From Terfezia claveryi (taxonomy: Eukaryota; Ascomycota; Pezizomycetes; Pezizales; Pezizaceae): a stretch of 64,000 nucleotides of DNA. The notes under the pieces were generated by a model, which did no database searches, was not told the origin of the DNA, and saw only the letters and a list, made by a program, of their open reading frames with translations. A program made the position numbers and the translations under genes. The stretch lies in assembly GCA_015179025.1 (NCBI GenBank), contig WHUX01000048.1, positions 279,740 to 343,739 on the forward strand, given 5' to 3'. How positions within the stretch are numbered: position 1 is the stretch's first letter; each line of letters starts with the position of its first letter. Below, piece by piece: positions 14,078 to 57,478 of this stretch.

Positions 14078-16731
14078 CTCTGTTGGAGAGGGCTGGACAT
14101 GAGTTTGTTGTTTTGTTGGAACGCGCCATTAGGACTTTTGTTTGCTTTCTTTCGGGACTACCTAGATGTGACTGCTATTCATATGATTAGTCGTAAATTG
14201 CTATGCAGATGGATTGACGATGAATTACCGATGCCTAAGATTGAGAAAAGCTTCTTTGTGCCTTGAATGTCTGATGTTTGCTAGATAAAAACCTTGTCAG
14301 TCACACCTGCGTAGCAAATGAGCTGAGGATAACTTACTGATCCTAATTTATGCTGGGATTACAATCCTAACTGAATATGTTTTTTTTCAGAGCACGTTCT
14401 GAAGGTTCGCTGGGTTGATTGTGGTGATATTTGTGTTGGAGCACGCACGGTTTGGGTGGTAGATAAGGCTTCAGGTGATACCCCTCATCTTGCTTACTGA
14501 TGTTCTGCTTACTGATGTTCTGGAGAGGCAAGTTCAACTACCACAGTTGGCATAGCGACTAGTCAGATGACTACATGCGATATAGTATTAAATACCTCGC
14601 AAGTAAGACACATTAAGACATGTTCACATGTATATCGAAGGAAGGCAATGCTCCAGGAGAGTACATCTATCTGGATAAGAGCGTATTTCCAACCTGCTGC
14701 AAGAAAAGTCGACGGAATGTAGTACTGACGTATGGCAGAACCAGGGCGGGGCGACTAGCAACCTCCCTGAGGTGGGCATATATTGCGGGCGTCAAGTGGA
14801 TGCCATAGTCTCATGCCAAGACTCTAGTCAATCGCATAGCTTCGCATTTGCTGAGACTACGGATGCCAAACGACTCACGTGCCAACCAGACTAACGACTC
14901 ACGCTCAGGAGTATTGCCCATTCCTATGGACTTGCAGTTCAACCATGCACCATTCAGAAATTACCAGGAAGACGAGCACGGATCCCGGGCACCCTTGGGA
15001 ATCACACCGACACTCGACCCGGCAGGAGGTGATTGGGAAGCGAATCGAGGTACATAAGCAGAGGGTCGTGGAGAGGGTCTCGGTTAAGGAATGAGAAGGA
15101 GAGGATCCTAGGCAAGGCCGTGAAAAGAGTAGTAACACCGTGGTTATGAAGATAAGACTGTCCACAGTCGGCCATTTCTGTGGACAGGCACCCAATTCCC
15201 CTGATATATCTGACATGAAGCTGATCATCGGCTGTCCTAGAGCAACCACACGCGCACCCACCAGGTGCAAGCTGGGGAAATGCCCAGCTGTGCCGAGGAT
15301 AGCAGCAGAAATCAGGTAGCATAAATAGGGACATGTTCTGCTGAGTGGGAGTTTCACTTCAAATAAATATCATGGAAGAACTGCTCCTTACTGTCAGGGT
15401 ACACACGGCAGATTGGTCCTGGGATGCTGCTCAACTACGTCGTCAGAGATGCCGCCCCGCCCCGCCCCGCCCCTGCCCCTTTTCGGCTTCTATAGGGGAC
15501 AATAATAAGGGTATCTGGTTGTGCTTTTCATTCTTTGGGATGAGAAACCCTCCTGCCCTGAGCGTTTGAGATATCAACCTTCCCCCCTGCTGCCTTCTTA
15601 AAAAACTTTCTTTTAAATATAAATTAGGTTTAGGGTTATAGGCTGCTATTCAAAGCAGCAAACTTAAAAACTGCTTTAATTCCAAAAAGCTGTATTTCAA
15701 AACCAGACTACCTAGTGAGTTGCCCAAAAAAGAAACTACCATAATGACGAACTCGACTTGTGGTCCTAATAGTTATGCCTTGCTAGATGTGTCTACTATA
15801 GAACTCTAATAGTAAGATACCTAGTACTCTGACTATCACGATTTCTGTTTCTTAGGCCCGAGCTCTGCTCGTGCTACGGTGGAGTTGGGATACCATCCTA
15901 CAGAGATTCTACAAACAGGGAGTGGATATACATATGGCAAAGAAGCTACTGTGCGCCTAAAAAGCTATTGATTTGCTATGCCACAAGTTATACACCCTGT
16001 CATTGCCTTTTTTGTCTAGCCCATTCATCGCACTTGATTTTCTCACTCAAAAATGACCGGTTCTCATTAAACATGCAATACCCGTGTATCGACATTTTAA
16101 CCAGATCAGTTTCAAGGGCGATTGCGAAAACTACATCCCTCTGGGACCCTGTCGTTTAAAATATGAATTGGTAAGTAATATATGGCATTTGTAATCACAA
16201 GCAACCGGCAATCAGCCTACGACTATGACCATTTTTTTTCAATAAACAGATAATTTTCCGCATTACACAGAATTTTAAAACATCTTTGTTACCCAATCGG
16301 GCCACTACGGCAGGCGTCCTCATAGTACTATTCTTTCACTAATGCCGAATAGATGACTTGCACTGACTCATAACCTAACCTCCACAAAGCAACGAACAGT
16401 TGAAGCATAGAATCTGCTCGTTCATTCCTCGAGTTGTTCTGGAAAACTGTATGTGTCCTAATCCTAGACAAGATAAAAAGGAAGGAATCGGGATTCATCC
16501 GGAAAAATGATATCTAGTCGTCAGAGGGTATGTTTAGGGGTATCCGGTGGTTAGAGGGAATGTTGGTGATGTTTAGGGGTCTCCGGATGTATATACGGGG
16601 TATCCGAATGCATATATGTTCATTTTACTACACATGTTGCTACAGGCATATATTCTCTATAAGCATGGGGGTCGACTGCCCGATGACATGCTTGTAGCGG
16701 ACTCCTACTGTACAAAGATCTGGCGGCAGGC
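14078..16731. other. No gene recognised, apart from a micro-insertion at 14.88 kb
   Basis: Short overlapping open frames around 14.85-15.36 kb lie on both strands and have no domain. 15440-15480 contains a short CCCCG repeat. I see no RNA gene. Confidence 0.4.
14879..14893 (-). mobile_element. TAGTCTGG micro-insertion (15 bp)
   Basis: On the minus strand it reads exactly TAGTCTGGTTGGCAC. Direct repeats ACGACTCAC flank it at 14870-14878 and 14894-14902, and the match can be extended to 10 bp with a one-base shift of the boundary. Nothing else is inserted. Confidence 0.85.
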
Positions 16732-23996: not shown

Positions 23997-24000
23997 GGAA

Positions 24001-25008: not shown

Positions 25009-25022
25009 TAGTCTGGTTGGCG
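25009..25022 (+). mobile_element. TAGTCTGG micro-insertion (14 bp)
   Basis: TAGTCTGGTTGGCG lies between exact repeats CTTATCCTCC (24999-25008 and 25023-25032). The repeat extends two more bases (TA) if the boundary is shifted. Confidence 0.85.
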
Positions 25023-25129
25023 CTTATCCTCCTACAGCCATCTGCACTGGAATCGAATAGGAGTCATGAGTATTTAAGATTAGAACAAAAAAACAGCCTA
25101 TCTGCATCTCCTTTTTCCAAGCCCCTATA

Positions 25130-41734: not shown

Positions 41735-41862
41735 GGTTTATATATATAGTACGAAATACTTAATGTCGAGACAATACTCGATGGTACCCGGTTGCAAATT
41801 AATTGGGATGTGGGTCAGCATGGCATTTCGGCATTTCGGACGACATCGACCTGTGCAAGAGC

Positions 41863-41876
41863 TAGTCTGGTTACTA
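41863..41876 (+). mobile_element. TAGTCTGG micro-insertion (14 bp)
   Basis: TAGTCTGGTTACTA between exact repeats GCAAGAGC (41855-41862 and 41877-41884). Confidence 0.87.
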
Positions 41877-41980
41877 GCAAGAGCACAGACTGCACGGAAT
41901 GGAAGATATATAGTTAACTAAGCAAGAAGGGCATTTCTGGGTCTGAAAACGAGTACCAGATTAAAAGCGAGTAGTACTTT

Positions 41981-42298
41981 GTTACTTCAGCACCTAGGTC
42001 TGTACTTGCCCAATTGAATTCACGTTATCTACCCGCACACTTATAGTGACAGTGGGAATCTATACAGCCCGCCCTTTATGTTTTCGGTTGCATCCACCTA
42101 TTCATCCCCCACCTTATCCGTGGCCGACTGGTTCGGTTGCGGCCTGGGTGGGGACCCCAACACAACCTGTTGGGGGGGCTCCCAGTTCGACTCCCAGAGT
42201 CGGCTGGGAAATATTTCCGGGAACCTATTCATTCCCGGGCAGACTAACCGCGTACTCCTCTACGACTGGAGTGCGCGGTGAACTGTTTTGTCTCATGT
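41981..42298 (+). repeat. Structured repeat, copy A
   Basis: About 320 bp, from GTTACTTCAG to TTTTGTCTCATG, also present at 47224 and 50211. Within it GCCGACT (42123-42129) and AGTCGGC (42198-42204) can pair and enclose CCCCAACA...TGTTGGGG, followed by TCCCAG/CTGGGA and CCGGGAA/TTCCCGG stems. A TTCGACTCC string resembles a tRNA B box, but no T stem forms. It carries no ORF, no poly(A) and no visible TSD. It is probably a non-autonomous element or a structured-RNA-derived repeat. Confidence 0.75.
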
Positions 42299-42405
42299 CG
42301 GGCAATTCATTTGATAACTGAATTTGGTACATAACGCACTTGAATTTATGACAATATATCTAACTAGACTAGACCTCTATTAAATATACCGATACAACTA
42401 GGCTA

Positions 42406-43969
42406 TTATTGATCCCGGCGCAGGCAGTATCGGCCAGAAGCTGGCCTGGGAGCAGTGGGAGGTGTAATAGCTTCATCTAGCTCTGGGTCGATTGGGATAT
42501 CCTCCAGTTCAATGAGTTCATCCTCCGGGTCATCCTCCAGGTCATCCTCCAGTTCATCCTCTAGGTCATCCTCCGGGTCATCCTCCAGTTCATCGTCTAG
42601 GTCATCCTCCGGGTCATCCTCCAGGTCATCCTCCGGGTCATCCTCCGGGAAACTTAGTATTCTCTTCCTCATTTCAGCCATTATCCAGATCTTTACTAGA
42701 ATTATCTTTCTCTTACTCTAGTTCTATAGTTTGCCATTCATCAAATAGAAGATGTACTTGATATAGATAGAGTCAGCCAAAGACAATTCTATAAAGTGGC
42801 TTAAGTGTTGCAGAGCTTGGTTTAATTAATACCTAATACAATATATGGAAGTACTGTATTCCATACTACTATATTGGCTCACTCAGTCTTTTATTTAGCT
42901 AGTCGAGATTGCACAACTCCATTTGCCTGCTCAACAAGCCCTTGAACTTTGGTGTTCGAGGTTTTCCATACTTAATTTTGATACTCCAAGCTCGTAATAA
43001 ATACTCAACTGCTCCCTTAAATTCTCTACTATTATCAGACTGTAGAATTTCTGGTGGACTATAAAGCTGAATCCATAATGTCATAGCACATGCAATAGAC
43101 TCCACCTAATAATATTAGTATTATACTACTTATATTAATAGATTAACTTACTGTTTTATCTTCTAATAGTGTAAGATAATACTATTTACTATAGTGGTCT
43201 TTTATATAATATATCCATTTATATTGTCTATCTGGCTCATATTATATATCAATAAGATCAACTTGAACTCATTTACATAATCTATTAACAACAATTGGAT
43301 GTCATATATCAATAAGATCAACTTGAACTCATTTACATAATCTATTAACAACAATTGGATGTCATATATCAATAAAATCAACTTGAACTCATTTACATAA
43401 ATCTATTAACAAAAATTGGCTGAAGTGGTGGTATTGTTCGATTTGGACGGTTTAGTTTATAGACCTATATTTTTTAGTATTTCATATAATCAACTATACA
43501 TAGATTTTTTATACCTTGTAGTGCTTAAGTAGCCAACATACTTCAGGCCGAATTATTCTATAATATTGTTCCATAATAATATTAAAGGTCTTTTCTTGAC
43601 CTCCATGAGGAATTGCACAATGTGTAGTAGAGATCACACCAAAAAGTTGCCAGTTATGAAGAACTCGAAGCTCCTTTCCAGCATCATCTCTACAACAAAG
43701 TTTTTCATCCTCATCCAAATAAAGCCTTTGTAGAACTTGAAAGCGAGCTTTCTGTTCATTTTTGCTTAGTTTTGGACTATCATAATCATAATCTTGAGCT
43801 TGTAAAAGCCATTGCTTAAATTGATCATAGCGAGTATCATCAGATCATGAGTGATGTGGAGTATCGCGCAAGTACTGATGAAAGGCTTCTTGCTTTCCAT
43901 CGGTAAAAGGTTCCATAGGTTGGAGGTCAGGTACTCTAGCGGGTGCTCAGGAGACTTGACTTGCGGACA
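42406..43969 (-). pseudogene. Integrase-type (KRBA2/Ginger-like) transposon ORF, decayed
   Basis: AT-rich minus-strand relic. N-terminal part from ATG near 43969 (MSASQVS) through QYLRDTPHHS and SPKLSKNEQKARFQVLQ to an H2C2-type zinc-binding region (HCAIPHGGQEKTFNIIMEQYY). An rve integrase core fragment lies at 42899-43105 (PPEILQSDNSREFKGAVEYL; KIKYGKPRTPKFKG), where SDNSREF matches the second catalytic Asp motif. After a gap comes an acidic repeat (EDDPEDDLEDD) and a basic tail (GRYCLRRDQ). In-frame TGA codons and a missing middle show it is dead. The assignment to KRBA2-like integrases is by motif only. Confidence 0.65.
43243..43424. repeat. 60-bp tandem repeat, three units
   Basis: Units starting near CATATATCAATAAGATCAAC are repeated at 60-bp spacing inside the decayed integrase ORF. 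The last unit is slightly diverged. Confidence 0.95.
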
Positions 43970-44369
43970 TATTGAAAATAAATAGTAGAGTAGAAGGTAA
44001 ATAAGGTGGTGTTTGTGATATATTGATATTGTGGTGTATTGGTATTGCGGAATGAATAAATCTCACAATACTGGATCTCAGCTCGGCTTTTAAACTGTGA
44101 ATACGGTCACCAAACAGCGCATCCCAGCTTAATATCCCTATTTTCTCACATCAGATCTACCGACCATCTCACATAAGCACTATCGGGCATCTCACATCAG
44201 ATTTACCAGGCATAATTGATTACTTAGTTCACCAATCCCAGGTCAGATTAATTTACCGAATTCAGTAGTTGAATTAATTGCCCGCGGGAGGCATAGTATG
44301 CCGCCGGCGAGCGGCCCAGAACACATACTCAGGGAGGCCAACAATATCCATTGCCTGTACAGATGACGG
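43970..44369. other. Spacer between two head-to-head integrase relics
   Basis: About 400 bp of non-coding sequence containing short repeats (CATCTCACAT and CAGATTTACC variants). It separates the minus-strand integrase start from the plus-strand C-terminal relic. Confidence 0.4.
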
Positions 44370-45215
44370 ACAACACTATTGTTTTGTTGTGCGAAAACCT
44401 ATCCTAACCGCCATGCTTTATTAACTACATATGGCTTATTGGAACGACACTATCCAACCCGTGAGCTACTACGCATTCCAGACTCATTAGATGCACCTAA
44501 TATTCGAATTCTAAAAGAATCTAATATTTCTGCTTCTGAATGTGCATGGCCTGGTATTGCGCTGTAATATATTAGACTTCGTGAAGCTGCTCACCGTTAG
44601 TTTATATCCTGAAGTATGTCCTCCGCATTCTGTATTAATTTTCCACCTAGACTTACATTTATGACAGAATTCCTACAAGTGCAAGGGGAAATGCCAAACC
44701 CGACAATGCAGCTGTCTTAAATCTGATTTGTATTGTAGCAGCCACTGCCATCCATCACATAGCTGCTTGAATACTCCTATCGACCCAGATGTACAGGCGC
44801 AATTGGACTTGGAGTGGACCTGGAAGCGGACTTGGAAGCAGACTTGGAAGCGAAACTGGAGAATCTAAGCAACACTTGGAAGCAGACCTTGAGGAGCATG
44901 GTTAGTCTGGTTGGTACAATCCCCCGCCATAGCATGGTGATATATATTATTATTTAGTACAATTCATGTTCGTTAGCACTGATGTATCTCATCTTCCATA
45001 TACCCTCACTAAATCACTACTTTTGGTTATCGAGACCAACCCATGGATCTGGCCTCCGAGGGAATTTCATTTTTGCATTCCCGGGCAGGACAATATTCCT
45101 GCGTAGACCAGCCCTCCCAAGAATCATGTGGCTTCCCCGACAGTATAGCCCATTCGTGAATCAGCAAAATTCCGACAGAACCCCTGGTGGGGGGTGGTGG
45201 GGTCAATTGGGGTAG
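44370..45215 (+). mobile_element. 3' part of an integrase-type transposon, decayed copy 2
   Basis: Plus-strand homologue of 7027-7860. Encodes YPNRHALLTTYGLLERHYPT, APNIRILKESNISASECAWP and, after stops, a Cys-rich tail (KCKGKCQTRQCSCLKSDLY; CSSHCHPSHSCLNTP). The Cys-rich tail is clearer here than in copy 1. Several stops break it. It contains the micro-insertion at 44903-44930. Confidence 0.55.
44903..44930 (+). mobile_element. TAGTCTGG micro-insertion (28 bp)
   Basis: Begins TAGTCTGGTTGGTACAATCC and ends CCGCCAT. Exact repeats AGCATGGT lie at 44895-44902 and 44931-44938. Confidence 0.88.
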
Positions 45216-45869
45216 GGTATCGGGTCTAGCGAAGACTAGAGAGGCTGGAGAGGCGGACGCACTTGAGGCGGTTGATCCTGAGGAGGCTAAGGGGGTGGTA
45301 TCAGCGAAAGATTCCTTGTCTTTCCCTTTCACCTGTGACCAATATTTTTCCACCTTTTTTTTTTTCTTCTCCCAGTTATCTGTGTATATGGAGTCCTTAA
45401 TCCCGGAGGTCGATGCCTTAGATTCCACGGATCCCTCATATCCAAAAGATCCCTTAGACCCATAAGCTTCGCCAACGCTGTCCATAAGAGCCATGTCCTC
45501 AGCGCTGGTGAATGGACTTCCTCCCTTTAGTGCTCCGTCAGTCTTGGTAGCTTGGGTCATCAAGGGGTCATTTGCAAGACTAACCGTTAAACACGCTCTC
45601 CCCGTGATATCGACATCCTGACCACCAAGATACCCACTTGTCCTTGTAGCTCCCCAAGGCATAGTCGCCTTATCCTCATGCACATCCAACCAATCCACCC
45701 GGCCAAAACTCCATCGGTCTAACTCTGGTGGAGGAATGTTCAGGGGAATGTGCATCATCCAATAATCATAGCCCTTCTCCACTTCCACCCTGATTCTCTT
45801 CCTCACTTCCTTCCACTTTGCAGCTGTGAGAAGACATGGGCATGATATGGCATAGTGGCACAGATACAT
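45027..45869 (-). CDS. Hypothetical protein running into a transposon relic
   Basis: 280 codons from ATG 45867-45869, though the first about 17 residues may be intron (an AG before TGGAAGGAAGTG). The middle is protein-like and unique: KWKEVRKRIRVEVEKGYDYW, HIPLNIPPPELDRWSFGRVD, RACLTVSLANDPLMTQAT. Then come a lysine-rich stretch (NWEKKKKKVEKYW) and a Ser/Ala-rich linker. The last about 60 codons (from about 45210) lie inside the integrase-transposon repeat, so the original C-terminus was lost or replaced. No family was recognised. Confidence 0.45.
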   Translation of the reverse strand: MYLCHYAISCPCLLTAAKWKEVRKRIRVEVEKGYDYWMMHIPLNIPPPELDRWSFGRVDWLDVHEDKATMPWGATRTSGYLGGQDVDITGRACLTVSLANDPLMTQATKTDGALKGGSPFTSAEDMALMDSVGEAYGSKGSFGYEGSVESKASTSGIKDSIYTDNWEKKKKKVEKYWSQVKGKDKESFADTTPLASSGSTASSASASPASLVFARPDTLPQLTPPPPTRGSVGILLIHEWAILSGKPHDSWEGWSTQEYCPARECKNEIPSEARSMGWSR

Positions 45870-46279
45870 AATGGCATAGCGCGTGCACTAGCGTGACCTG
45901 GAAAGCCTTAAGCTTCCGAGTTACTTTGTAGAAATCATTATCATCATCATGAATATACATACATACACACATCATTTGTCACACGTTCTGACAGCAGCAC
46001 CCATTTTCGCATCCATTTTCGCTCGTAAGCTTACATTAGTCATCCAGCTCTTCACCAACGACTCTTCCTTCCGAAATATCCACTTCCTCAAATATACCAA
46101 GTCTGCCAAATCACCATACTCGATATTTGGGTGGATGGATAAGAGCATCCAGGGTGCGAAGGAGGTCTGTCGTAGAAGAGAAAGAAAATATATTACAGTC
46201 TTCATATTCGTATTGCCAGGTGTAGGAGAAGGTTACTTTTTGCGAGACGCTGCTCGACGCGGGGATGCTCTTCATGTAT
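45870..46279. other. No gene recognised
   Basis: Possibly upstream exon or leader of the 45-kb ORF. A frame at 45766-45975 overlaps it but shows nothing definite. Confidence 0.35.
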
Positions 46280-46345
46280 TTTTTTTAATTTTTTTTATTA
46301 ATACTCATTACTCCTATTCGGTCCCAATAAGGAAACAATGAGGAA
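46280..46345 (-). mobile_element. Short LINE tail
   Basis: T-rich runs, then TAATACTCATTACTCCTATT, CGGTCCCAATAAGG and ATGAGGA, after which homology stops. The first stem-loop is absent and no TSD was found. Confidence 0.7.
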
Positions 46346-46879
46346 TGGGCTAGAGGGACTCATCGGAGAATGTGTAGTTTTTGAAGTTTGCTTTGTGATG
46401 ACATCGAAGTTGGTCGACACTCAGCTGGAGATATCTAGGTAAAGAGGCGTGGTGCGGGGTCACCCATTAGAGTGCCCCCTTGTGTGGACATAATCAGTCA
46501 TAACAGGAGGCTGGTCGTTACGGTCGGTCGATAGTATATGATAGTATATCTCGGTAGTTCCCTGAGTAGATGTGGGTAAAGATGCGTGTTTGCTACACAA
46601 AACGCCGTAAGCACCCTGCAAAGTTGTTGGAGCGATCCTTACCAGGTTTTCGGGCGTTTCCTATAATAGTGAATGCTCACGAATAGGTACTATAGAGTAA
46701 CGGAGCTGAAACGTGCACAGTGTAAAGGTCAAACGGGAGAGGTATGTGTCGTGGGTATATAATGCAGGACAGCCTCAGGGAACGCTTGTGCTTGAGATGC
46801 GGTGAGGAGGTGATACGTCGTTTGTTGGTTAGAAAGAGTGACTCTAGATACGCTGTGCTGCCTGGGCTGGTCTCCCCGC

Positions 46880-47223
46880 TGATGATGGAGATGAAGATAT
46901 TGAGGAATGCATCCTCAGTACCTTCACACTATCTGAGAATGAAGATACTGAGTGTGAGCCACCCTAGTCTGGTTGGCACAGGCCCCCCTGCACGATGCAT
47001 CCCCATCAAGCCGCTATTGATTGAGAAACATCGAATGGAGGGCTATTTGATTCAAGAAAAGCCAAACAAACCCAGCGGAGGATCAACGAGTCCTTACAGT
47101 ACTCATTTCCTGTCTCATTTGTCCATTTCCTCATGTATGTAATTTCTCCCGGTATAAGCATATACGTTATAAGCATACCACCTCCGGTCCTGACCGAGTG
47201 CTTGTAACGGGAGTTTTCTGTAT
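46880..47223 (+). pseudogene. pogo/Tigger-type transposon 3' end, copy 1
   Basis: Homologous to 49795-50210. It carries decayed C-terminal transposase codons and a terminal region whose reverse complement reads AAAACTCCCGTTACAAGCAC, a pogo/Tigger-like terminal sequence. The shared block continues into the structured repeat, so the two together were duplicated. Confidence 0.55.
46965..46980 (+). mobile_element. TAGTCTGG micro-insertion at a site that is empty in the sister copy
   Basis: TAGTCTGGTTGGCACA interrupts GAGCCACCC / GGCCCCCCTGCA. The homologous stretch at 49875-49900 reads GTGAGCTACCCCCTCCCCTG with no such insert. The flanks AGCCACCC and GGCCCCCC match at 6 of 8, an imperfect duplication. 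Confidence 0.75.
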
Positions 47224-47530
47224 GTTACTTCAGTAGGTACTTGCCTAATTGTGTTCACGTTATCTGCCCGCCCACTTCTATCATGAGAATCTATAAGCCC
47301 ACACCTTTATGTTTCCGGTTGCACCAACCTATTCATTCCCCACCTTATCCGTGGCCGACTGGCTCGGTTGCGGCCTGGGTGGGGACCCCAACACAACCCG
47401 TTGGGGAGCTCCCAGTTCGACTCCCAGAGTCGCCTGGGAAATATTTCCGGGAACGAATAGTTCCCGGGCAGACTAGCCGCGTACTCTTCCACGACTGGAG
47501 TGCGCGGTGAACTGTTTTGTCTCATGTATA
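47224..47530 (+). repeat. Structured repeat, copy B
   Basis: Same unit as 41981-42298. The outer 7-bp stem carries one change (AGTCGCC), while the inner CCCCAACA/CGTTGGGG and the CCGGGAA hairpins are kept. Confidence 0.75.
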
Positions 47531-47619
47531 GGCTTTTTTTTTTAAAAAAGTACTATAGCCATACATTTCTGGTGAGTGCCACGGTAATTAAAGGCCGGCG
47601 AATGGCTGCGGCGAAGCTC

Positions 47620-48013
47620 AATATTATATTAAGGTCATTTTTAGTATTCTTATTATCATTGTTTGTTTTTGTGACCCCGACCCAAAGGGCTCCATGATTT
47701 TCGTCAGCATCACGGTGTGTAGTTTACCTACTTGAGCAGGAAGATATGCAGTTAAGTCAAAAAGCGCAATTCCGAATATGAAAATCCATAGTACCGAAAA
47801 CTCCCGTTATAAGGATACAAAAAAACCTTGGATTTAAGGCATAAATTCACCCATTCGCATGGGCATACCCTTTTTTTGATTGGCCGGCAAATGGGCGTGG
47901 CGGAGGAGGCAGGGCTGTTTTCTGCATTACTTTCTGTGGCTCGGAAGGCTGGACGTTCATGTAGTTCGTTGTTCAGAGGGTGACCGAGCCTTTTAAGATG
48001 AGGGATCGGGGCT
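47620..48013. other. No gene; pogo-like terminal sequence
   Basis: At 47794-47815, CGAAAACTCCCGTTATAAGG resembles the pogo/Tigger-type end seen (inverted) near 47.2 kb and 50.2 kb. No transposase is attached. Confidence 0.4.
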
Positions 48014-48022
48014 GTCTCATAG

Positions 48023-48036
48023 CGGTAACCAGATTA
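48023..48036 (-). mobile_element. Micro-insertion, diverged (14 bp)
   Basis: On the minus strand TAATCTGGTTACCG, one base off the usual TAGTCTGG, between exact repeats GTCTCATAG (48014-48022 and 48037-48045). Confidence 0.82.
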
Positions 48037-48159
48037 GTCTCATAGTAGGCTCCACAGACCCAAAAAAAGAAAAAAGAAAACCTTTTTGGGGGCTTAGCCA
48101 CATACATATCTTATAACGAGTGTGGCTAGCAGATATGCTTTACGATATATATATAATTT

Positions 48160-48400
48160 TTCAAATACTCATTACTCTAGTCTGGTTGGCACAACACCCT
48201 CCACAGGAGGTCATTACTCCTATTCGGTCCCAGCAAGGGGACTATCAGGAGCCACCCGGGTTTGCATACAGGGACAAGGCAAGTTAATATGCCAGGTCCG
48301 ACGCTAAGTACACAAACTCAAGTGGATCGAGGTCCGATGCTGCTATTAACATGCTTGCCACGATGACCCAGGCCTGACTGAACCTTGCCCCAAAAAGAAA
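48160..48400 (-). mobile_element. LINE tail (ATTCGGTCCC type) hit by a micro-insertion
   Basis: Minus-strand tail: AAATACTCATTACTC, CTATTCGGTCCCAGCAAGGG, GGAGCCACCCGGG, GGCAAGTTAATATGCC, then a 3'UTR-like part ending near GACTGAACCTTGCCCC. It is interrupted at 48178-48210. It lies directly downstream of the LINE ORF1 relic at 48550-49555 in the same orientation. Confidence 0.85.
48178..48210 (+). mobile_element. TAGTCTGG micro-insertion (33 bp) inside a LINE tail
   Basis: Begins TAGTCTGGTTGGCACAACAC and ends CACAGGAGG. Exact repeats TCATTACTC at 48169-48177 and 48211-48219. All other copies of this LINE tail read TCATTACTCCTATTCGG uninterrupted, so the empty site is known. Confidence 0.93.
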
Positions 48401-48549
48401 ACAAAGATATATCGCAGGTGGAAACAAAACCCTCCAAAACCTCACCGCCACCCCCCAAAAAAATAATCGCAAGTAGAACAGTGAAGCGCTGGTATCAATT
48501 TACAAAACCCTTTGTCCAAACACATTCGCCGGTGAAAAAACTCAATCCC

Positions 48550-49555
48550 TCATCTCTTCCAGTCGTATGCTGTAGTGCGGAAAAGTCTCCTGCCCATGCG
48601 GAGCCCTCGCGTGCGGTCGGCTTCCTTCGCCATGTAGATGACGAGTAACGATGCCAACTTTCCAACCCCTCTGTCTTCCTGCAGCAGCCAGCCGAGAATT
48701 CGAATCCCTCTGTTGTCTTCCTCTATCCATCGGCACATCGAGCCGGGTTTGCACTTTGTACCCTGTTTGGGGCCGCATGAAATACCACGGCTCCTGCTCA
48801 TATTGATAGTTGGTGGATTATTGGAGGGGGGGATGGCCGAGGGTGGTGTCGCCTTCGCCGGCCCTTTGCCCTTACCCTTTCCAGGTCCCTGACTTGGTCG
48901 GTTCGGGGGATTGTTCGAGGGTGGTGTTTCTGCTCCCGCCAACGCTTTCCCTTTGCCCTTGTTTTTGTGGGTTTGCAGCTCCTCCTGGGTGGTCTCGGCT
49001 GCTGCCTCCGCGTAGGTGCGTGCTAGGGGAGGAGGGGGTCGGTGTTGTGGAAACACTGTTCGACGTCTTCCAGGTCGTGCGGCAGTGGTGGTGGGGGTCT
49101 ATGTTCGTCGAGGAATGTGGCTGAACTGGTACCTTACGTTTGACCCATGCTGCGCCTCCTTCGTCTAGAAGCCTGGTAAAACATTGAGCGGCTTGTCGAA
49201 ACGAATCATCTTCAAAAACCATTTCGAGATCGTGCTCTATGAACGTCATGAGTTCCCGTAGGCACCAAACTGCCTTAATTGAAGAGCTGTTTGTCGGGTC
49301 TTGATTATTCCTAGCATTGAGACAGATCCTCTTAGCCAATTGGGGGACTATCAACGTCACGGGATCCTCGTCGTCTATTTTCGCGCTCTCGTTTGCTGTG
49401 GTGGTGTCTGCTGGTGGGACTGTACTTGCGTCAGTGTCGTAACCATCGAGGGGCGGTGACTGTGGGTGTCCGGTGACTGGCAGCCGAGTCTTTCGTGGAG
49501 GATTTCATCGATCCATCTTCCCCGGATTGTCTTTTCTCTTTCCTTTACCTGACAT
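48550..49555 (-). pseudogene. LINE ORF1 (gag-like) relic without an ORF2
   Basis: Starts at ATG 49553-49555 (MSGKGKRKDNPGKMDR) with an early TGA. It continues TRLPVTGHPQSPPL ... IVPQLAKRICLNARN, shifts frame near 49030, then TYAEAAAETTQEELQ, a Gly/Lys-rich stretch, and CRWIEEDNRGIRILGWLLQE ... YMAKEADRTRGLRMGRRLFR. The WLL..R..GK.AS...IYM...RMGR.LFRTT pattern is typical of ORF1 proteins of ascomycete LINEs. The next thing downstream is a LINE tail (48400-48160), with no reverse-transcriptase ORF between. The whole may be an internally deleted, gag-only LINE. Confidence 0.65.
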
Positions 49556-49794
49556 GTCGTCGGTGTGTACGGTTGGCTATTGAGCTCGTTGGTTTGTGGA
49601 TCCTAGTGTTGGCGAATCTGCTGAGTGGTGTGGGAGTTAACTCGGCTCAGTCGTTGTGGTTACTTAACGATAAGAAATTAGTGAGCGCGTCATCAACACC
49701 CAACGACACCAGATAGCTACAATCCACGTTGCACACCCAGCTTTTACCCTCCTCCACAGTCACTAAAACATCGCATTCATCAATCCTGCCTCTG

Positions 49795-50210
49795 AAGTTG
49801 TTGATGATGGCGATGAAGATATTGAGCACCGCATACTCAATTCCTTCACACTAGCTGAGAATGACGATCCTGAGGTGAGCTACCCCCTCCCCTGCATTGA
49901 GGATTTACCCATCAAGCCGCTATTGATGCTTTGGTAAAACTTGTTCTATATTCTCTGCAGACCAATAGAAATACAAGGCAGATGGAGAAGATATTGCAAA
50001 GGGGGAAACATCGAATAGAGGGCTATGTATTTGTATCAAGAAAAGGCAAACCCAGCGGAGGATCAAAGAGTTCTTACAGTACTTATTTCCTGTCTCATTT
50101 GTCTATTTCCTCATGTATTAAATTTTCTCCCGGTATAAGCATATATATATTCGTTATAAGCATACGACCTCCGGGCCCGCCCGTATGCTTGTAACGGGGG
50201 TTTTCTGTAT
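49795..50210 (+). pseudogene. pogo/Tigger-type transposon 3' end, copy 2
   Basis: Contains transposase C-terminal codons (EDIEHRILNSFTLAENDDPE in one frame) with stops, then a basic end (KKRQTQRRIKEFLQ), then the terminal sequence TATAAGCATACGACC...GCTTGTAACGGGGGTTTTC. It has about 80 bp that copy 1 lacks. Confidence 0.55.
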
Positions 50211-50560
50211 GTTACTTCAGTAACTAGGTGCTTGCTAGTCTGGTTGCTCTCTATGAGAGGTTGTGCAATCAGACTAGGTGCTGGCCTAATTGTGTTCACG
50301 TTATCTGCCCATCATGGGAATCTATAAGCCCACACCTTTATGTTTCCGGTTGCATCCACCTATTCATCCCCCACCTTATCCGTGGCCGACTGGTTCGGTT
50401 GCGGCCTGGGTGGGGACCCAACACAACCTGTTGGGAGCTCCCAGTTCGACTCCCAGAGTCTGCTGGGAAATATTTCCGGGAACCTATCCGTTCCCGGGCA
50501 GACTAGCCCGTACTGCTCTACGACTGGAGTGCGAGGTGAACTGTTTTGTCTCATGTATAG
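50211..50560 (+). repeat. Structured repeat, copy C
   Basis: Same unit as copies A and B, with a micro-insertion at 50236-50272 that copies A and B lack. The outer stem again carries a change (AGTCTGC). Confidence 0.75.
50236..50272 (+). mobile_element. TAGTCTGG micro-insertion with inverted ends
   Basis: Starts TAGTCTGGTTGC and its other side reads GCAATCAGACTA, an inverted copy with one mismatch, around CTCTCTATGAGAGG, itself a hairpin. Flanks ACTAGGTGCTTGC (50223-50235) and ACTAGGTGCTGGC (50273-50285) match at 12 of 13. The sister copies at 41990 and 47234 have no insert. The right inverted end overlaps the flanking repeat, so two boundary placements are possible. Confidence 0.85.
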
Positions 50561-50619
50561 GAATCTTTTAAAAGTACTATAGCCATACATTTCTTGTGAG
50601 TGCCACGGTAATCAAAGGC

Positions 50620-51899
50620 TGGCGGTATTATATTGTCCTTCTTATATTCTTCCTATTGTTATTGTTCCTATTGTTATGATTATTGATCTTGTATATATAT
50701 TAAGCTGAAAGCCTCAGGGTTGAGTGAGGTTCATGCAATTATTAGGGATATTCAAATTTTGGTTGTACGCGCGTATTTTTGCGTATATACGGGGGTCGTA
50801 TATCCGGCCGTACGTCGTACTAAGTACGAGTGTACCTACATAGAAATAAAAATACGTGCAAGATGATTCAGCCAAAAAGAGGACTTGGAAATTTGGAGGT
50901 TTGAAGTGCCCTTTACCGGCGCAGCACACTAGCGATGCCACAAATCAGCGAGAAACGGCTTATCATCGAATGGTTCCTAAAAACGCTTAATACTGGGATC
51001 GAAAAATGCAAGAAGAGAAAGCGCAAAAGAAGGATGTTTGGGTTACAGGTTCTGCGCTACCTATATGAGATCCGCTATTTGAGAGAAAGGCGAGGAGGGT
51101 CTGATCGAGACTAAGAAAGGCGAGGACTAGCAAAAAGTGGAGCATGGTATCACGATATCATCACCCAGCTTCCTCTGAACTGTTTCAGGCACCACCCATG
51201 CTCAGTAACCATGCTACATGCATTGCTAGCAGACCATGTCGGGCAAGTGATTCATAATCACCTTGACGTCTTCCAACAATTAACAAAGCTATCGATACCG
51301 ACAAACTCGAGTGATTGTTGTGGGGATGTGATTGCAAGAGCCGGATTTGACAGTTTGCGGATAGCGAGGGTGTATCTCGTATGGCTTGGCGGTGACTGGC
51401 GCTTTGCTGTAAAGGGTAGTTTTTGATTTCCCTGGCAGGGATAAGATTTGCATGGATCGCTTGCATATGCAGGGCTGCAGCATCGATTCGTGGACATGTT
51501 GCAACACCATGAGTTCAGAGGAACCGAATATAGGGAACGTTGAATAGAGGTAATCACCGCCGGCCGATGTAAGATTAGACTAAAGGGTTTATTTCAGGGG
51601 TCTTTAAGCGCGGATTGGGAAATTGGGATTTGGAATATTGGATCATGGAATGGGTAGATGTTTTCGGGCAATTGAAGGCCCATTATCCTCCCTCTTTTAA
51701 TACAATTCTTCATCGAGACATTATGAATTGTATCTTGCAATTCAAATATATACTTTTCATACCTCAATCCGAAAGTTGTGTGATTTTTCAGGGCATGTTC
51801 TAATCTCCGTGTAAAATAGAGGTAGAGCCTTGTTTCTACAAAAGGAGCAACTAATGGGCAGCATCAACACCATCACCGCCTACAGGAACGAGGCCTCGT
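50620..51899. other. No gene recognised
   Basis: Opposed short frames only. No domain and no RNA gene. Confidence 0.4.
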
Positions 51900-51907
51900 G
51901 CGTTGAG

Positions 51908-51918
51908 TAACCAGACTA
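51908..51918 (-). mobile_element. Smallest TAGTCTGG micro-insertion (10-11 bp)
   Basis: TAACCAGACTA (minus strand TAGTCTGGTTA) lies between GCGTTGAG at 51900-51907 and 51919-51926. Shifting by one base gives a 9-bp repeat, GCGTTGAGT, and an insert of only 10 bp. Confidence 0.82.
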
Positions 51919-51927
51919 GCGTTGAGT

Positions 51928-52372
51928 TCATACCACGTTTAGTATCACCCCCATGGGCGAAACAGAATAGTCCCACGATTAGAAATTTTATCATTAAGCA
52001 AATAGCTCCTCCACACACCTCCATCAACTTCGTGGGTATGGCTCTACATTCGCCAAGATTCGAAGGACTATTGAGGAGGGAGAATGCTGGACTAGGGAGA
52101 TATAGGTATGCAGCTGCATATTAAAGAGGGAATTAGAGATAGTGAGAATAGGATGCAGGATATGATGAATGTCGACGCGTGTCAAGGGAGCCAATTCAAA
52201 GCATACAGCTTTACTTTTGGGACAGTCGATGGCTGAGGTGGCTCCAAATTGAAGCATATGCGTCATCCTCGTCAAGATCAAGGAGTGGCTCAGGACAACC
52301 TCCGTCCACGAAGGCTCAGGACAACCTCCGTCCACGAAGGCTCAGACTCAGACTCGTCGACCATGGCCAAGT
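51928..52372. other. No gene recognised
   Basis: No coding support. Contains the 26-bp tandem repeat listed separately. Confidence 0.4.
52288..52340. repeat. 26-bp tandem duplication
   Basis: GGCTCAGGACAACCTCCGTC... occurs twice in direct tandem. Confidence 0.9.
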
Positions 52373-52386
52373 ATCAATGGAAGAAG

Positions 52387-52406
52387 TATTTTAAAAAAAA
52401 AAAAAA
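52387..52406 (+). mobile_element. 20-bp LINE-tail insertion with 14-bp TSD
   Basis: Only TATTTT plus 14 A is inserted, between exact repeats ATCAATGGAAGAAG (52373-52386 and 52407-52420). TATTTT is the last motif before poly(A) in the shared LINE tail (AGTATTTT). It is the shortest such insertion here. Confidence 0.93.
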
Positions 52407-52420
52407 ATCAATGGAAGAAG

Positions 52421-53890
52421 GCGAATGTTTTCGAGAACCAGGCTTTGACAGCGTAATGTGCAGAGGGGCAGTCGGCGTCTGCGGTGATATGGCGGATGAA
52501 TGTGGAAATGGGGCAGGCACAACATCAGTGCCACGTGGCACGCTGTGAGTTCTTCTTCTGGAAGTTTGCTTAACATATGCTTGGAATAGTTGGCCAACCA
52601 CACTAGAAATGTTGCCGAGCCTGGACATACTACCAGTTCTTCCCCTGCGGAGAGGGAACATAGGCATAGGTTTAAGCCCCACGATACAGGGCAAGCCGGA
52701 TGAGCTTTTGCTCGATTTATCTTCTCTGAGGACGTATTTGGAGCATACAGGAAGACCTCGTATGGGGTTTTTGTGGTGGGGAAACACACTAAGTACAGTA
52801 GTCCCGCTCTAGGTAAGACTTCTTTTGAATTTTCATGGTACCGGTACAATGGCATTGGCTTTCTTGTCTTCCTGAAGTTAATCTATTCCTATCTAGGGAT
52901 TTAGTGTGAACGTGGCAAGTTTTTTGTATTGCCACATTGATAGCCATTTCTGACTTTTTCTATGTTCAATTGATTTCTTGAATACAGGGTTGTTCATACA
53001 AATATACTAGAGTATTTTGATTGCACTGTCATGGGTTTTTTTAGGTTTCGGGGAGAGTGCTTCATTTCTTGGTTTTTTTTCGGTAGGTAAACAATATCTC
53101 CTTCAATATGCGCTCCACCACTGGTTTTAGGCATACCGATTCCTCTTGCACATCATTCCTAGTTACAGCTACAGCATTCGAATTTGCAACCCGTGCATCG
53201 CTTCTCCCAGCTGCGTTATGCACGTCAGCTCGCTAACACTCTCCTTGCTGCTGCCTATCTTATCCCTACTACCCAACCCGAACGCACCGTTCCCAACCGT
53301 ATCTGCTGCCCAATTGGGACTGGGTACAACTACTTTAGGATCTCCGGGTCCGGCTAAACACCACCTGCCGCTTTGCTCTATATGGCTCTTTACGGCAGTC
53401 TGATCCCTCCCCCCTTTTCCCCCAAGAAAAAGAAAGAAAAGACATCGGACAAAGAAGCAAGGGGGGGGTTATCAGCGGGAAGTTAATGGGGCCTGTTGAT
53501 GTTGATAGATGAGTTATGCCGGTGAAAGGGAGGATAAAAAGTTAAGCATGATCGCAAAACACTGACTTTGAAGGACATTCGTCTGAATGGCACTTACAAA
53601 ATTTTGGTAAACCGTGTTCTCAGGAACGGCTCTGAGATCTGAAGTGGCTCGTTATCTTCTTCCAGTACCTAGTACGATTTATTTTTAACGAGAAACAAGC
53701 ACACCCAGGAGCTACCTTTGAAAAGATGTTGTGGCTGTGGGGCTATAGGCCCTATTATAGCTCCACTCCCAATACCAGTTGCCATATATGTACGCTGCAG
53801 TTCCATGAGCAATATCTCCATATAGCTTAGATTAGGCTATGGTTATGTTTTAAACTTCACTCCTCATATCAACCTTAAAAAGTAATTTTG
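52421..53890. other. No gene recognised
   Basis: Opposed short frames on both strands near 52.4-52.85 kb and a pyrimidine-rich stretch at 53.2-53.4 kb. Nothing supportable. Confidence 0.4.
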
Positions 53891-53894
53891 TTTT

Positions 53895-53945
53895 TTCTTT
53901 TAAATACTTGTAACTTCTCTGCGGTCCTGTTCGTGATAAACTGTG
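53895..53945 (-). mobile_element. Degenerate LINE tail
   Basis: TTTTAAATACTTGTAACTTC then TCTGCGGTCCTGTTCG: the poly(A)-proximal part of the shared tail, decayed. Confidence 0.5.
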
Positions 53946-54686
53946 GTCCCACGCGAGAAATGCCTCAAAGTCGTGTACACCGAGTCGTGTATATAATAGT
54001 GTCCACAGATCTGGTTCCTTGGACTTGTTTATTATTTAGACCTGGGCCTACGGTTGGCTACTGGCGTTCTTAGTTCTTGTGGATTGTTTCAACATCCCTG
54101 TCACAGAAGACGATTGCGCCTGCCGTCCAACCTGCGACTTATATTTTCTCCTTCAGATGACCATGCTTCTCGGTGTAGCAGTCTAGCGTTTGAACAACCT
54201 CGTGCTTGCCCGTTCGCTTGTAACCAGTGTCGTTCTTGGAGCCCATGAAATGCCGTAACATCTACCTACTAACAATCGGCCAGGTAGAGCTGTTAGCTGA
54301 CTCCAACTTCCAATACAGAAGGGCAATAGATTGGGCAAGAGCCAATGACTTATCCATAGAATTTCAAGAGGTTTGCCGCCTGTGAGTTTGCCGGACGGGG
54401 ATCGAGCTACTGCATACCTAGTCGATTCGTCCACACGGGGGCACCTACAGTAGGTAGACCAAGGGCGTGTCATGAAGTTGGGGGATATCGTACCCAGGCC
54501 AGTTTACCTACCTTCTTGGTTAGTTGTGGCTGAATCCAAGATTTAGAACGACAGGTAGGTAAGGAATCTAGTTGGTTGGCACTGGTCTGGCTTGCACAGC
54601 TTGGCACAAGCCCCCCGCTAAAAATGGGATCAGCAGTTCGCCTAGTCTGTAATCGCCCCGCTGTACCGTATTTGGGACCACGGGCA

Positions 54687-56369
54687 TATTCTGTAGGATG
54701 GTCCTGTTTTCCATGGTAGATCTTTTGGGGCATGTACCAATATCTCCGGAGAGGCTGTGTTCTCTACGGCTCTTGTCGGTTATCCAGAATCGATGACCGA
54801 TCCCTCTTATCGTGGCCAGATCCTCGTGTTCACCCAACCATTGATTGGGAATTATGGAGTGCCCAGTGACTCCCGCGACAAACATGGACTGTTGAAATAC
54901 TTCCAATCGCCAAACATCCAAGCTTGTGGTATTGTGGTTGCCGATGTTGCATTGAAGTATTCACACTGGACCGCTGTTGAATCCTTGGTGCAGTGGTGTG
55001 CACGAGAAGGAAAAAAAAAAAAAAAAAATGCACCTGGGGGCGGATAGCCGAGCGAGGGCAGAGACAGCAACTCGTCGTAGTGAAGTACCCCCAGTCATCT
55101 CCATTACCTAGCAGTTGACTCACCACCAGGTGCGTGCGCCAGGTTAAGTCCGGTTGAATTCCGGTTGGGCTCGGACAGGTCACATCTCGTACAAACAGTC
55201 ACGGCTGGTACCCGTAGGGGGTTTCCTCCAGTACGTGTGATGTATTGGTTAGTCACTGGGGGATCTTTGGTATAGTGTCCACTGCATCGTTCTCATTGAG
55301 CAGTAGTGTTCACAGTAATATACCTATAGAGACCGGTAGCTGGTGGATGGTGGGAGTTTATATGTACTACCTTCTGCATCGCGAAGAGCTGAGAAATGCA
55401 GCGTGAGGCGAGGCGTTACGTACGGTTCAGAGCACCATTAGAGTAATGAATTCCATTACGCGTGTTCCCTGACATTGCATACAAGAGCTCGGGGTTTCGG
55501 GTTAACTGCAGCGTAACGGTCCAACAGGACGGATGCGGGTGTCAGTCTCAATGAACGCAGCAATGCGTACGCAGTTCACCTGCGGAGGCTTAAGGAGCAA
55601 AGGCAAATACTATAGCGGGGTGGTAGCCGCATAGTTCTCTACTAATTCAACTCAGTAAGTGGGTCTGGTCCACTACAAGTTATGGAAAGCGGGTAACGCC
55701 GTGAGTATGTCCCATAGCGAAACTGAGAACTGATGAGGGAGACGACAGAAAGAAGCCCCCGCGGCTGGTGGAGTAGGGCAGTTCTCACCTCCCTTCCGGG
55801 CTTGGGCAGGCAGCTTCCGGGAGAAAACAGTGTCCGTCCACCCTGTTGTCGGTAATACCTCCAGGGGGACCCCGAAAGGGGTAAGGGCAAGTTGTGCCCT
55901 AGGTCGGAAAATCAATGTTGACCTCCGGCAGCAATGCCGGAAGGATTTAACACACCATCAGGGCATGTCCTGTTGGAAGATCCCCCCCGTTTGTGGCTTG
56001 ACGAACCGGATTGGAGAAAGGAAGGGGAGGAGAGTTACGAGGCCACGGAGGCCTTTTCAAGTTGCTATACCATGAGCTCACCTAGGAAAGGTCGCCTCAA
56101 CTAGTTCCCTTTGTACCAATTCACAAGCTATTCCGTTATCTTTCCAGTTCATTTTGAGTTCTTGACTTCATTCTTCGGTCTCAGTTTCACAGGTTAGGAG
56201 GTTGAGGCTCAGTCAGGCTTCCGGGTCATCGGATAATCCGTTAATGACAGTACGGGGCCTCGTCTTGGTATTTGCATTTATCTTGCGTGGTTCTGACAGA
56301 TTAACTTGTCTTAACCTTGAATCCAATAGGAGTAACAAGTATCTATAAAAAAAAAAAAAAAAAAAAAAA
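54687..56369 (+). mobile_element. Chimeric retrocopy: CPA1 fragment + unknown segment + LINE tail
   Basis: An exact 13-bp direct repeat GGGACCACGGGCA flanks it (54674-54686 and 56370-56382), the right one directly after a poly(A) run. The insert begins with a carbamoyl-phosphate synthase fragment (54688-55010) ending in 18 A. About 960 bp of unrecognised GC-rich, hairpin-rich sequence follows. From about 55994 there is a LINE ORF2 end (LDEPDWRKEGEESYEATEAF), its 3'UTR and poly(A). The first stem-loops of the usual tail are deleted (CTTGAATCC joins AATAGGAGTAACAAG). The simplest reading is template switching during LINE reverse transcription. Confidence 0.75.
54688..55010 (+). pseudogene. CPA1: Fragment of arginine-specific carbamoyl-phosphate synthase small subunit
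   Basis: About 108 codons in one frame: [78 protein letters not shown]. This is the conserved N-terminal domain of the glutamine-dependent small subunit, which normally supplies ammonia for arginine synthesis. The catalytic amidotransferase domain is absent. One TAG lies near the start (54694-54696). There is no intron, and the fragment stops at an A-rich codon run (GAAGGAAAAA) that becomes an 18-base A tract. This suggests a cDNA copy primed inside the message. It cannot make a working enzyme; a functional gene must lie elsewhere. Confidence 0.9.
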
Positions 56370-56460
56370 GGGACCACGGGCAGCCAAACCAGGCAGCCTT
56401 GTCTCAATCAGGCAGTCGAGTCTGACCACCCTCCATACCGTAGGATCACACCCTCCACAT

Positions 56461-56475
56461 GTGCCAACCAGACTA
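56461..56475 (-). mobile_element. TAGTCTGG micro-insertion motif
   Basis: GTGCCAACCAGACTA on the plus strand, preceded by ACACCCTCCACAT, which also appears beside the motif at 48178 and 57389. No flanking duplication was found. Confidence 0.55.
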
Positions 56476-56521
56476 ATCTCCGAGGTAGGTTCCTCCGAGA
56501 ATATCTCCAAGCAGCCAGACC

Positions 56522-57369
56522 TTTTTTTTTTAAAAAAAAATACTTGTTACTCCTATGCGGCCCCGTTAGGGGGACCACGAGGATCCACCCAGAAGCCTGG
56601 GTGGATTCAAGGTTAAGACAAGTTAATCTGTCAGAACCACGCAAGATAAATACAAATACCAAGACGAGGCCCCGTACTGTCATTAACGGATTATCCGATG
56701 ACCCGGAAGCCTGACTGCTCCTAACCTGTGAAACTGAGACTGAGCTGGAAGAATAAGGTGGGGAACTGGAAATGAACTAGAAATAACGACGTAACTTATG
56801 AACTGGTACAAAGGGAACTCGTATAAAAAAACCTCCAGAAAATTGAAACTAGGTGAGCTCGTTGAATAAGAACCTGAAGTAGGCCTCCGTGGCCTCGTAG
56901 GTCTCTTCCCCTTCCTTTCTCCACTCCGGCTTGTCGAGTTCCTCCCAACTACTCTTGTCCCCCAGTAGGGCTCTTCTGGGACGGTCGAAACGTGGGCATA
57001 CAAAAGTGATGTGCTCCCCTGTCTCCGAGGGGTTACCGCATGCGCATTCCGCTGATTCTGCTTTACCGATGTGGTGCAGCCAGCCCTCTGTTCGTGCGTA
57101 GCCACGTATAGGCTGACAGATCGTGCCGGTCCCATTCCACCCTCCTGATCCCGTATCCGCTCTCGTTCATGCTTCTTTGCGTGCAGCCTTGGGGGACGCT
57201 CGGAGGCCCCCTTCTGTCACTGTGCGGGCCTTGCCTGTGAAAGCTCCTAGGTGGGACTGGAAGTTGCAGGTCCGGTCCGCCTTCGCATTCCCCTCGATGC
57301 CAAGATGGCCTCTGATCCAAGATAGCCTGAGGTCCCTATGTGCGTTGCCGGCTAGCAGTGCCTTGATCT
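56522..57369 (-). mobile_element. LINE 3' part (848 bp) with RNase H end, 13-bp TSD
   Basis: Poly(A) at left, both stem-loops, the 3'UTR, then ORF2 back to the last RNase H motif (LRLSWIRGHLGIEGNAKADR near 57290-57330), via AYTWLRTNRG and the knuckle region. Several frameshifts. Exact repeats AAGCAGCCAGACC flank it (56509-56521 and 57370-57382). Confidence 0.95.
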
Positions 57370-57388
57370 AAGCAGCCAGACCAATCTC

Positions 57389-57418
57389 TAGTCTGGTTGG
57401 CACAACACCTCCACAGGA
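57389..57418 (+). mobile_element. TAGTCTGG micro-insertion motif, longer member
   Basis: TAGTCTGGTTGGCACAACAC then CTCCACAGGA, nearly identical over about 30 bp to the insert at 48178. The right end is unclear because no direct repeat was found. Confidence 0.6.
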
Positions 57419-57447
57419 AATTTAACTTTTAAGCGTGCTGCGTTACA

Positions 57448-57470
57448 TAGTCTGGTTGGCCTCATCGAGA
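57448..57470 (+). mobile_element. TAGTCTGG micro-insertion (23 bp)
   Basis: TAGTCTGGTTGGCCTCATCG plus AGA, between exact repeats GCGTTACA (57440-57447 and 57471-57478). Confidence 0.88.
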
Positions 57471-57478
57471 GCGTTACA

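Follow-up and report, generated by a model that had tools for sequence, protein, structure and literature searches.

Transposon scars normally consist of a few bases and are hard to count genome-wide. The cut that frees P elements is staggered, lying at the transposon end on one strand and 17 nt within the 31-bp terminal inverted repeat (TIR) on the other (PMC7776569). The Mutator-like element (MULE) Muta1, according to PMC5225508, excises precisely in about 90% of cases when it has 8/9-bp target duplications, and occasionally leaves up to 13 bp of TIR when it has none. Here we describe a family of short inserts in the fungus Terfezia claveryi that were noticed in a 64,000-nucleotide stretch of its genome (positions 279,740 to 343,739 of contig WHUX01000048.1, assembly GCA_015179025.1; called "the window" below), which is part of contig C423 in the 72.56 Mb and 794 contigs that were searched. 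Most of these micro-inserts begin with TAGTCT at one end and are variable at the other. We favor, with a probability of only about 0.4, the reading that they are excision scars of cut-and-paste DNA transposons that have TIRs beginning TAGTCT, a 9-bp target duplication and a staggered cut inside the TIR.

Micro-inserts and their 9-bp duplications

The motif TAGTCTGGTT is present in 7,569 copies in the genome (3,752 + 3,817) as against 161 (87 + 74) for the reversed control, and TAGTCTGGTTGGCACAAC in 415 + 385 copies as against 0 in the control. The loci sampled for closer study are non-random, most blocks having been chosen around listed motif places; the least biased set is the window plus 18 blocks, with 115 distinct motif contexts. 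Loci L072–L111, L132–L151 and L152–L171 were chosen by longer motifs, which enriches long inserts in the 216-copy duplication test, the 37-copy cut-point count, the 78-case base count and the larger set of 256 contexts used below; this larger set and the cut-point and base-preference counts omit L112–L131, as well as L001–L007, which are repeats of other loci. When a fixed test for a 9-bp duplication with at most one mismatch was applied to the window plus 18 blocks, 43 of 72 exact copies of the motif had flanking duplications as against 151 of 5,700 random positions; in the 216-copy test 103 copies passed, as against 24 of 820 off-site positions. Exact repeats of at least 8 bp within 60 bases were present at 33/73 copies and at 636/69,434 background positions, and when the test point was shifted 5–30 bases off the motif the matches fell from 33/73 to 0–2/73. 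The initial annotation of the window had argued that its flanking repeats exceed chance and that the idea should be abandoned if they were no commoner than in controls; they are commoner, and these tests do not refute the idea.

The ten sites of that annotation are all present as described, apart from the following corrections. The flanking repeats, taken to be 8–10 bp long, are there, but the actual duplication is 9 bp: at 41863 and 57448, given as 8 bp, it is really 9 bp with the base nearest the variable end altered, and some duplications given as 10 bp are 9 bp plus matching neighbor bases. One-ended inserts of 15 bp lie at 14879..14893 (minus strand; TAGTCTGGTTGGCAC, duplication GTGAGTCGT) and 25009..25023 (plus strand; TAGTCTGGTTGGCGC, duplication TTATCCTCC), one of 14 bp at 48023..48036 (minus; TAATCTGGTTACCG, the motif with one mismatch, duplication CTATGAGAC), one of 33 bp at 48178..48210 (plus; ending in the hairpin CCTCC-ACA-GGAGG, duplication TCATTACTC) and one of 22–23 bp at 57448..57470 (plus; duplication GCGTTACA, the first of its 9 bases changed). 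The insert placed at 51908–51918 stands with a corrected start, as a 10-bp one-ended TAGTCTGGTT at 51909..51918 (minus) with the duplication ACTCAACGC. The 14-bp insert at 41863..41876 (plus; TAGTCTGGTTACTA, duplication GCAAGAGC with its ninth base changed) consists of 10 bp of one end plus ACTA, as at the other end. What had been taken for a 37-bp insert at 50236 is actually a 41-bp two-ended one (50236..50276, unstranded), an imperfect palindrome with both ends present whose duplication, GGTGCTTGC/GGTGCTGGC, has 1 mismatch. An insert of the second family (below), TAGTCTCGATCAGACCCTCCT with the duplication CGCCTTTCT, lies at 51093..51113 on the minus strand.

The sites had been counted as independent, which fails for those listed at 44903 and 7298. 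These are 27-bp one-ended inserts (44903..44929, plus; 7299..7325, minus) in 90% identical copies of one high-copy repeat, paralogs that represent the same event and count once at most. The repeat around them has 46 genome matches, some of which are pieces of one copy, and most of the 20 paralogous regions read have a native second GCATGGTG-like unit at this place, while at least one (L114) has a single unit. Because the native second unit stands at the same place in most paralogs, the flanking repeat at 44903 and 7298 is ambiguous, the duplication at 44903 being confounded by native repeat units, and the repeat's own repeated unit leaves it undecided as a same-site test of full versus truncated forms (20 regions, 46 matches). 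Could all of the inserts be chance motif matches, or their repeats be nested in a larger repeat? Nesting does explain 44903 and 7298, alone among the sites examined, but for the whole set this idea is refuted by the reversed-motif, shifted-point, off-site and random-position controls and has practically no probability left; the micro-insertion family is confirmed as real. The motif end had also been said always to adjoin a repeat, which is too strong: the window has 14 exact TAGTCTGGTT copies, of which 9 carry a 9-bp duplication with at most one mismatch, and no duplication was detected at 57389..57417 (plus; TAGTCTGGTTGGCACAACACCTCCACAGG), at 46965..46989 (plus), at 24533, or at 56475 and 15710 on the minus strand.

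When duplication length was measured freely, exactly 9 bp without mismatch was the commonest class (29 of 67 cases). Both outer positions favor G or C: the first base is one of these in 49/78 exact cases and the ninth in 54/78 (expected 47%; p ~0.004 and ~0.0001, respectively), and at base 4 they occur in 26/78 (p ~0.02). Of the 35 one-ended cases with a single mismatch, 22 have it at one of the two bases next to the variable end, so that this junction is slightly imprecise; microhomology there is near expectation, with 26 of 85 one-ended inserts sharing at least one base left of the duplication where ~25% is expected. Paralogous empty sites were found for three inserts: L012:5902 has a 91%-identical paralog without the insert and with a single copy of the duplicated bases, the 48178 site has nine matches to related repeat copies that are all empty, and the 50236 insert has an empty paralog at ~47,230. 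The micro-inserts are real insertions.

Lengths, hairpins and polarity

With insert starts searched as TAGTCT, one mismatch being allowed, the window plus 18 blocks contain 52 one-ended inserts with a duplication and 3 two-ended ones (6 rows). The one-ended lengths fall into two groups, with 31 inserts of 9–15 bp, 0 of 16–20 bp and 21 of 21–38 bp. In the larger set the 105 one-ended inserts are distributed 40, 0 and 62 over the same classes, with single inserts of 7, 46 and 58 bases, the last two of which hold further element ends; the commonest lengths are 15 and 10 among the short inserts and 27, 28 and 31 among the long ones. The inserts had been said to lack poly(A), and indeed no tail is present in those tabulated.

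The inner part of the inserts varies by family and often forms a hairpin with a 3-base loop (for example CCTCC-ACA-GGAGG, CTCTC-GTA-GAGAG, CCCTC-GTA-GAGGG and CCTAC-GTA-GTAGG). In these four stems, picked by eye as complete (units with imperfect or other stems, namely L020:780 and the CGC-loop and CCAAA-loop types, were left out), three of the five pairs change on both sides and 20/20 cells pair, as compared with 45–75% in slid versions. The position of the cut point relative to the end of the loop was counted in 37 family-assigned copies; a copy had to include the first two bases of the loop to enter this count, and one site is in it twice. The cut point is at +1 in 11, +4 in 10 and +5 in 4 copies, the remainder being at −1 (1), 0 (4), +2 (0), +3 (1), +6 (1), +7 (2), +8 (2) and +18 (1); copies cut before the loop exist (e.g., L106 and L110), and loop end and cut length in this set are weakly correlated (0.34, with an outlier at 46). 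Inserts of the 15-base class stop one base beyond the loop of a first small hairpin (loop at bases 12–14 in two folded units). The variable end often stops at small hairpins.

A second family, TAGTCTCGATCAGACC, has 363 genome copies (188 + 175) as against 1 + 1 in the control. It has its first six bases in common with the first family and carries a CTC-GTA-GAG hairpin on a shorter arm, the loop ending at base 22 as compared with 27 or 28. Among the 21 copies read (L171 was read from both ends, and L152 and L154 are sites already in L016 and L018) 13 have a 9-bp duplication, and their lengths are 20, 22, 22, 25, 25, 25, 26, 26, 26, 27, 27, 27 and 34 bp. The cut point has moved along with the hairpin, mainly to +3 to +5, an expectation that was not fixed in advance of reading the copies. 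One second-family insert is nested in a two-ended first-family element (C214). L159 and L171 show a second-family variant with an enlarged loop (GTAGTTATCGTA); one copy is one-ended (34 bp) and has a duplication with 1 mismatch, and the other is a two-ended form of 50 bp at which no duplication was detected.

Inserts with exact duplications comprise 69 that are one-ended and 9 that end in GACTA, and the GACTA-ending rows of the larger set are nine two-ended elements, each read once from either end, together with L046 and L105; far-end remnants of 4–6 bases are present at 41863, L046 and L105. The loop reads GTA versus TAC in a ratio of 53:2 among 56 copies in one search and 96:0 among the first 100 of 235 in another, where the remaining four are point variants; in a third family ACA versus TGT is only 72:27 (first 100 of 135). 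Because the two loop orientations are unequal, the retained end has polarity: either the parent has two ends that read alike inwards, as a conventional TIR transposon with a body of greater length would, or polarity is a property of the unit. If the parent were instead a 51–53-bp palindromic mini-element (arm, 3-nt loop, arm) whose one-ended copies had lost one arm, random arm loss would predict equal orientations, contrary to the GTA/TAC counts, although the ACA/TGT family is less clear on this point. Palindromes do occur (e.g., L135, 51 bp, duplication GCAAGCGAG), and there are 27 two-ended forms genome-wide with both 17-bp arms within 66 bp. However, by eye some of the 27 are composites of two inserts and only 1 of them is a full GTA/TAC palindrome with CTC stems; overall we consider such a parent improbable.

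Excision scars or polar insertion

The fixed 9-bp duplication, the predominance of one end, the hairpin-linked lengths, the family structure and the empty paralogous sites are the observations that we fit to the following scheme, in which excision, its staggered cut, the responsible enzyme and a parent element are all inferred. The transposase would cut one strand exactly at the border of TIR and duplication and the other ~27–34 nt inside the TIR, in a small hairpin, which would leave each donor flank with a 3′ single-stranded tail starting TAGTCT; the two tails would be identical and non-complementary. On rejoining, one tail would be ligated to the other flank and filled in, and the second would be trimmed at the border between single and double strand, which is the edge of the duplication. 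The product would be a single remnant of the TIR with an intact duplication on each side. Where the shorter remnants end (~15 and ~28) would be set by hairpins in the tail, and if both tails were trimmed the 9-bp duplications could pair and excision would be precise and invisible. Such a cut would account for the one-endedness, the intact 9-bp duplication, the upper length limit and the hairpin-limited shorter forms; a constant duplication with a G/C bias at both outer bases would be expected of a symmetric transposase, and near one-way GTA loops if both TIRs read alike inwards. An early suggestion that the inserts are aborted-excision remnants of one transposon is thereby favored in a sharper form, staggered excision that leaves one TIR tail.

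Scars might also arise without a staggered cut, if ordinary end-joining followed the loss of sequence at each end independently. Some scars do keep remnants of both ends (25, 30 and 34 bp), and the 22/35 mismatches at the first two bases by the variable end are a sign of joining. However, 52 one-ended and 3 two-ended inserts would then imply several-fold more insert-free tandem 9-mers than one-ended scars, and in 278,505 bases tandem runs of at least 9 bases number only 15 at period 9 (5, 2 and 5 at periods 8, 10 and 11), which is within the range of the other multiples of three (6, 38, 13 and 18 at periods 6, 12, 15 and 18), unless precise repair hides them. Since cut points at hairpins and the upper length limit are also unexplained by it, end-joining without a staggered cut is given little credence here.

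A number of results weigh against excision with a staggered cut. The initial annotation had advised looking for a long, transposase-bearing element between the ends TAGTCTGG...CCAGACTA, and none was found: in the window and sampled loci, no pair of TAGTCTGG/CCAGACTA ends with duplications spanned more than 91 bp, although separations of up to 15 kb were allowed, and a search for gapped two-ended patterns gave no long parent. Comparison of 140 motif ends with the sampled sequence by BLAST showed, by eye, no shared body starting at the motif, nor did any of 20 regions read in a search for copies running past the hairpin have one by eye (of the four copies listed in that search, L133 and L134 match only via a duplication beginning GGC, L135 is the 51-bp palindrome and L132 has no detected duplication). 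The genome has 21 MULE domain matches, and of the five loci read none was shown to be bounded by TAGTCT; three have other TIRs with duplications, and the ends of L068 and L071 gave no clear assignment. At no site were the empty, full and scar forms all observed. If only a few dozen of the 7,569 copies belonged to parents, these samples would not reveal them. To this must be added that the duplication went undetected at about half of the motif copies tested, that the third family is less polar (above), that six folded units show no greater stability than shuffles (z −0.44 to −0.64 for five and +1.07 for one), and that the predicted fold shows the expected terminal hairpin in 4/6 units only. Moreover, P elements make 8-bp duplications, not 9, and the insert-free class is not large (the 15 period-9 runs), which requires the extra assumption of precise repair; this class could be hidden, because Muta1 excision with duplications is ~90% precise (PMC5225508).

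The MULE loci have features of their own. L067:1961–4596 and L069:2314–4933 are MULE elements with TIRs starting CGGACTGACTC / ACGGACTGACTC and 9-bp duplications, and L068:1–7001 has a MULE domain between inverted arms of hundreds of bases that consist of many related repeats. The MULE-type element in L070 has a 240-bp TIR and the duplication CATCTGCAAC; the same TAGTCTGGCTGGC is present in both its TIRs (L070:1908, plus; L070:6435, minus) with near-identical flanking bases, possibly because a micro-insert in one TIR was copied into its partner.

The main rival goes back to the initial suggestion of a minute retro- or DNA-mobile unit, which stands in this role. A hairpin-ended nucleic acid of ~27–34 nt, either RNA or a folded single DNA strand, would be copied into a 9-bp staggered break from its ...AGACTA-3′ end; copying would stop at hairpins to give dead-on-arrival copies with one end constant and one truncated, and rare fold-back copying would give palindromes. 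Such polar insertion is a tentative but real possibility. It requires one event per copy rather than insertion plus excision, and it agrees with the one constant end, with the lack of one-ended lengths above 38 other than the two rows (46 and 58) with further element ends, with the near one-way loop orientation, and with the facts that there is no large insert-free class and that no parent body was found; palindromes such as TAGTCTGGTTGGCACAACCAGACTA resemble fold-back copies. On the other side, a fixed duplication with a symmetric base preference is not typical of target-primed reverse transcription, and the 9-bp duplication here is in this respect unlike its products. The inserts tabulated have no tail, no source gene, reverse transcriptase or integrase is tied to them (none was sought), and the 4- to 6-base far-end remnants at 41863, L046 and L105 would be unexpected. 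That the inserts constitute a new class of mobile unit, a ~30-nt hairpin-ended nucleic acid that enters a symmetric 9-bp staggered break by one end, has no second end and has left thousands of dead 10- to 38-bp inserts, we regard as less likely than not.

Other window features and comparison with known systems

A dispersed repeat of ~80–120 bp (CGGTCCC...GGGGAC...AGGAGCCACCCGG) is present at about a dozen places in the window (near 2785, 9216, 10764, 11629, 12140, 13326, 20150, 23613, 25132, 26837, 27433, 40880, 48214 and 56522). An Rfam search of the window at gathering thresholds found one tRNA, an 89-bp tRNA-Val (TAC) at 23997–24085 on the minus strand that from its length is possibly intron-bearing, and an Rfam search of five loci by expectation value found a tRNA, along with matches to miRNA models that stay below the cut-offs of those models. 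For one protein of the window the closest named relatives are in Kalaharituber pfeilii (53% identity) and Peziza echinospora (42%), which marks the host as a Pezizomycete-like fungus.

No description of such inserts was found in the titles and abstract beginnings of the open PubMed Central matches listed, including those for Pezizomycetes and desert truffle queries, a collection outside of which most subscription papers lie, and insert sequence strings were not found in open PubMed Central papers. Thousands of these inserts can be recognized by their common end, and their lengths would report on end cutting and trimming, so that one assembly becomes a record of cutting and repair. Under either excision or polar insertion, tools that seek two TIRs or long repeats would tend to miss them.

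Among known classes, hAT elements, for which 150 domain matches are listed in the genome, have an 8-bp target duplication, and the mode here is 9 bp. Miniature inverted-repeat transposable elements are similarly short, non-coding and high in copy number with target duplications, but they are defined by two TIRs and most of the inserts are one-ended and ~10 to 38 bp long. Long and short interspersed elements truncated at the 5′ end also have one constant and one variable end; theirs are a constant 3′ and a truncated 5′ end, with a variable-length duplication and a 3′ tail, whereas the micro-inserts have a fixed 9-bp duplication, no tail in those tabulated and a length limit near 38 bp. Helitrons make no target duplication, unlike the inserts. 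MULEs have target duplications of 8–11 bp, mostly 9, and in this the inserts agree with them; they differ in lacking a TIR at both ends (52 one-ended and 3 two-ended, above). Muta1, with 8–9-bp duplications and mostly precise excision when these are present (PMC5225508), differs in that the inserts here number in the thousands, are larger and are mostly one-ended. P elements and THAP9 provide the closest analogy for the proposed cut, since a long stagger inside the TIR (17 nt in a 31-bp TIR; PMC7776569) would be followed by TIR tails on the flanks, and a comparable cut may lie behind the one-ended remnants here; their duplication is 8 bp in the same source as against a mode of 9 bp here, and the remnants here reach ~27–34 and go with hairpins. 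On balance the inserts look like transposon scars of an unusual form, with a real chance that they are a new kind of insertion, and should there be no parent, the insertion of a unit by one end with a symmetric 9-bp duplication would represent a mechanism undescribed in the classes compared.

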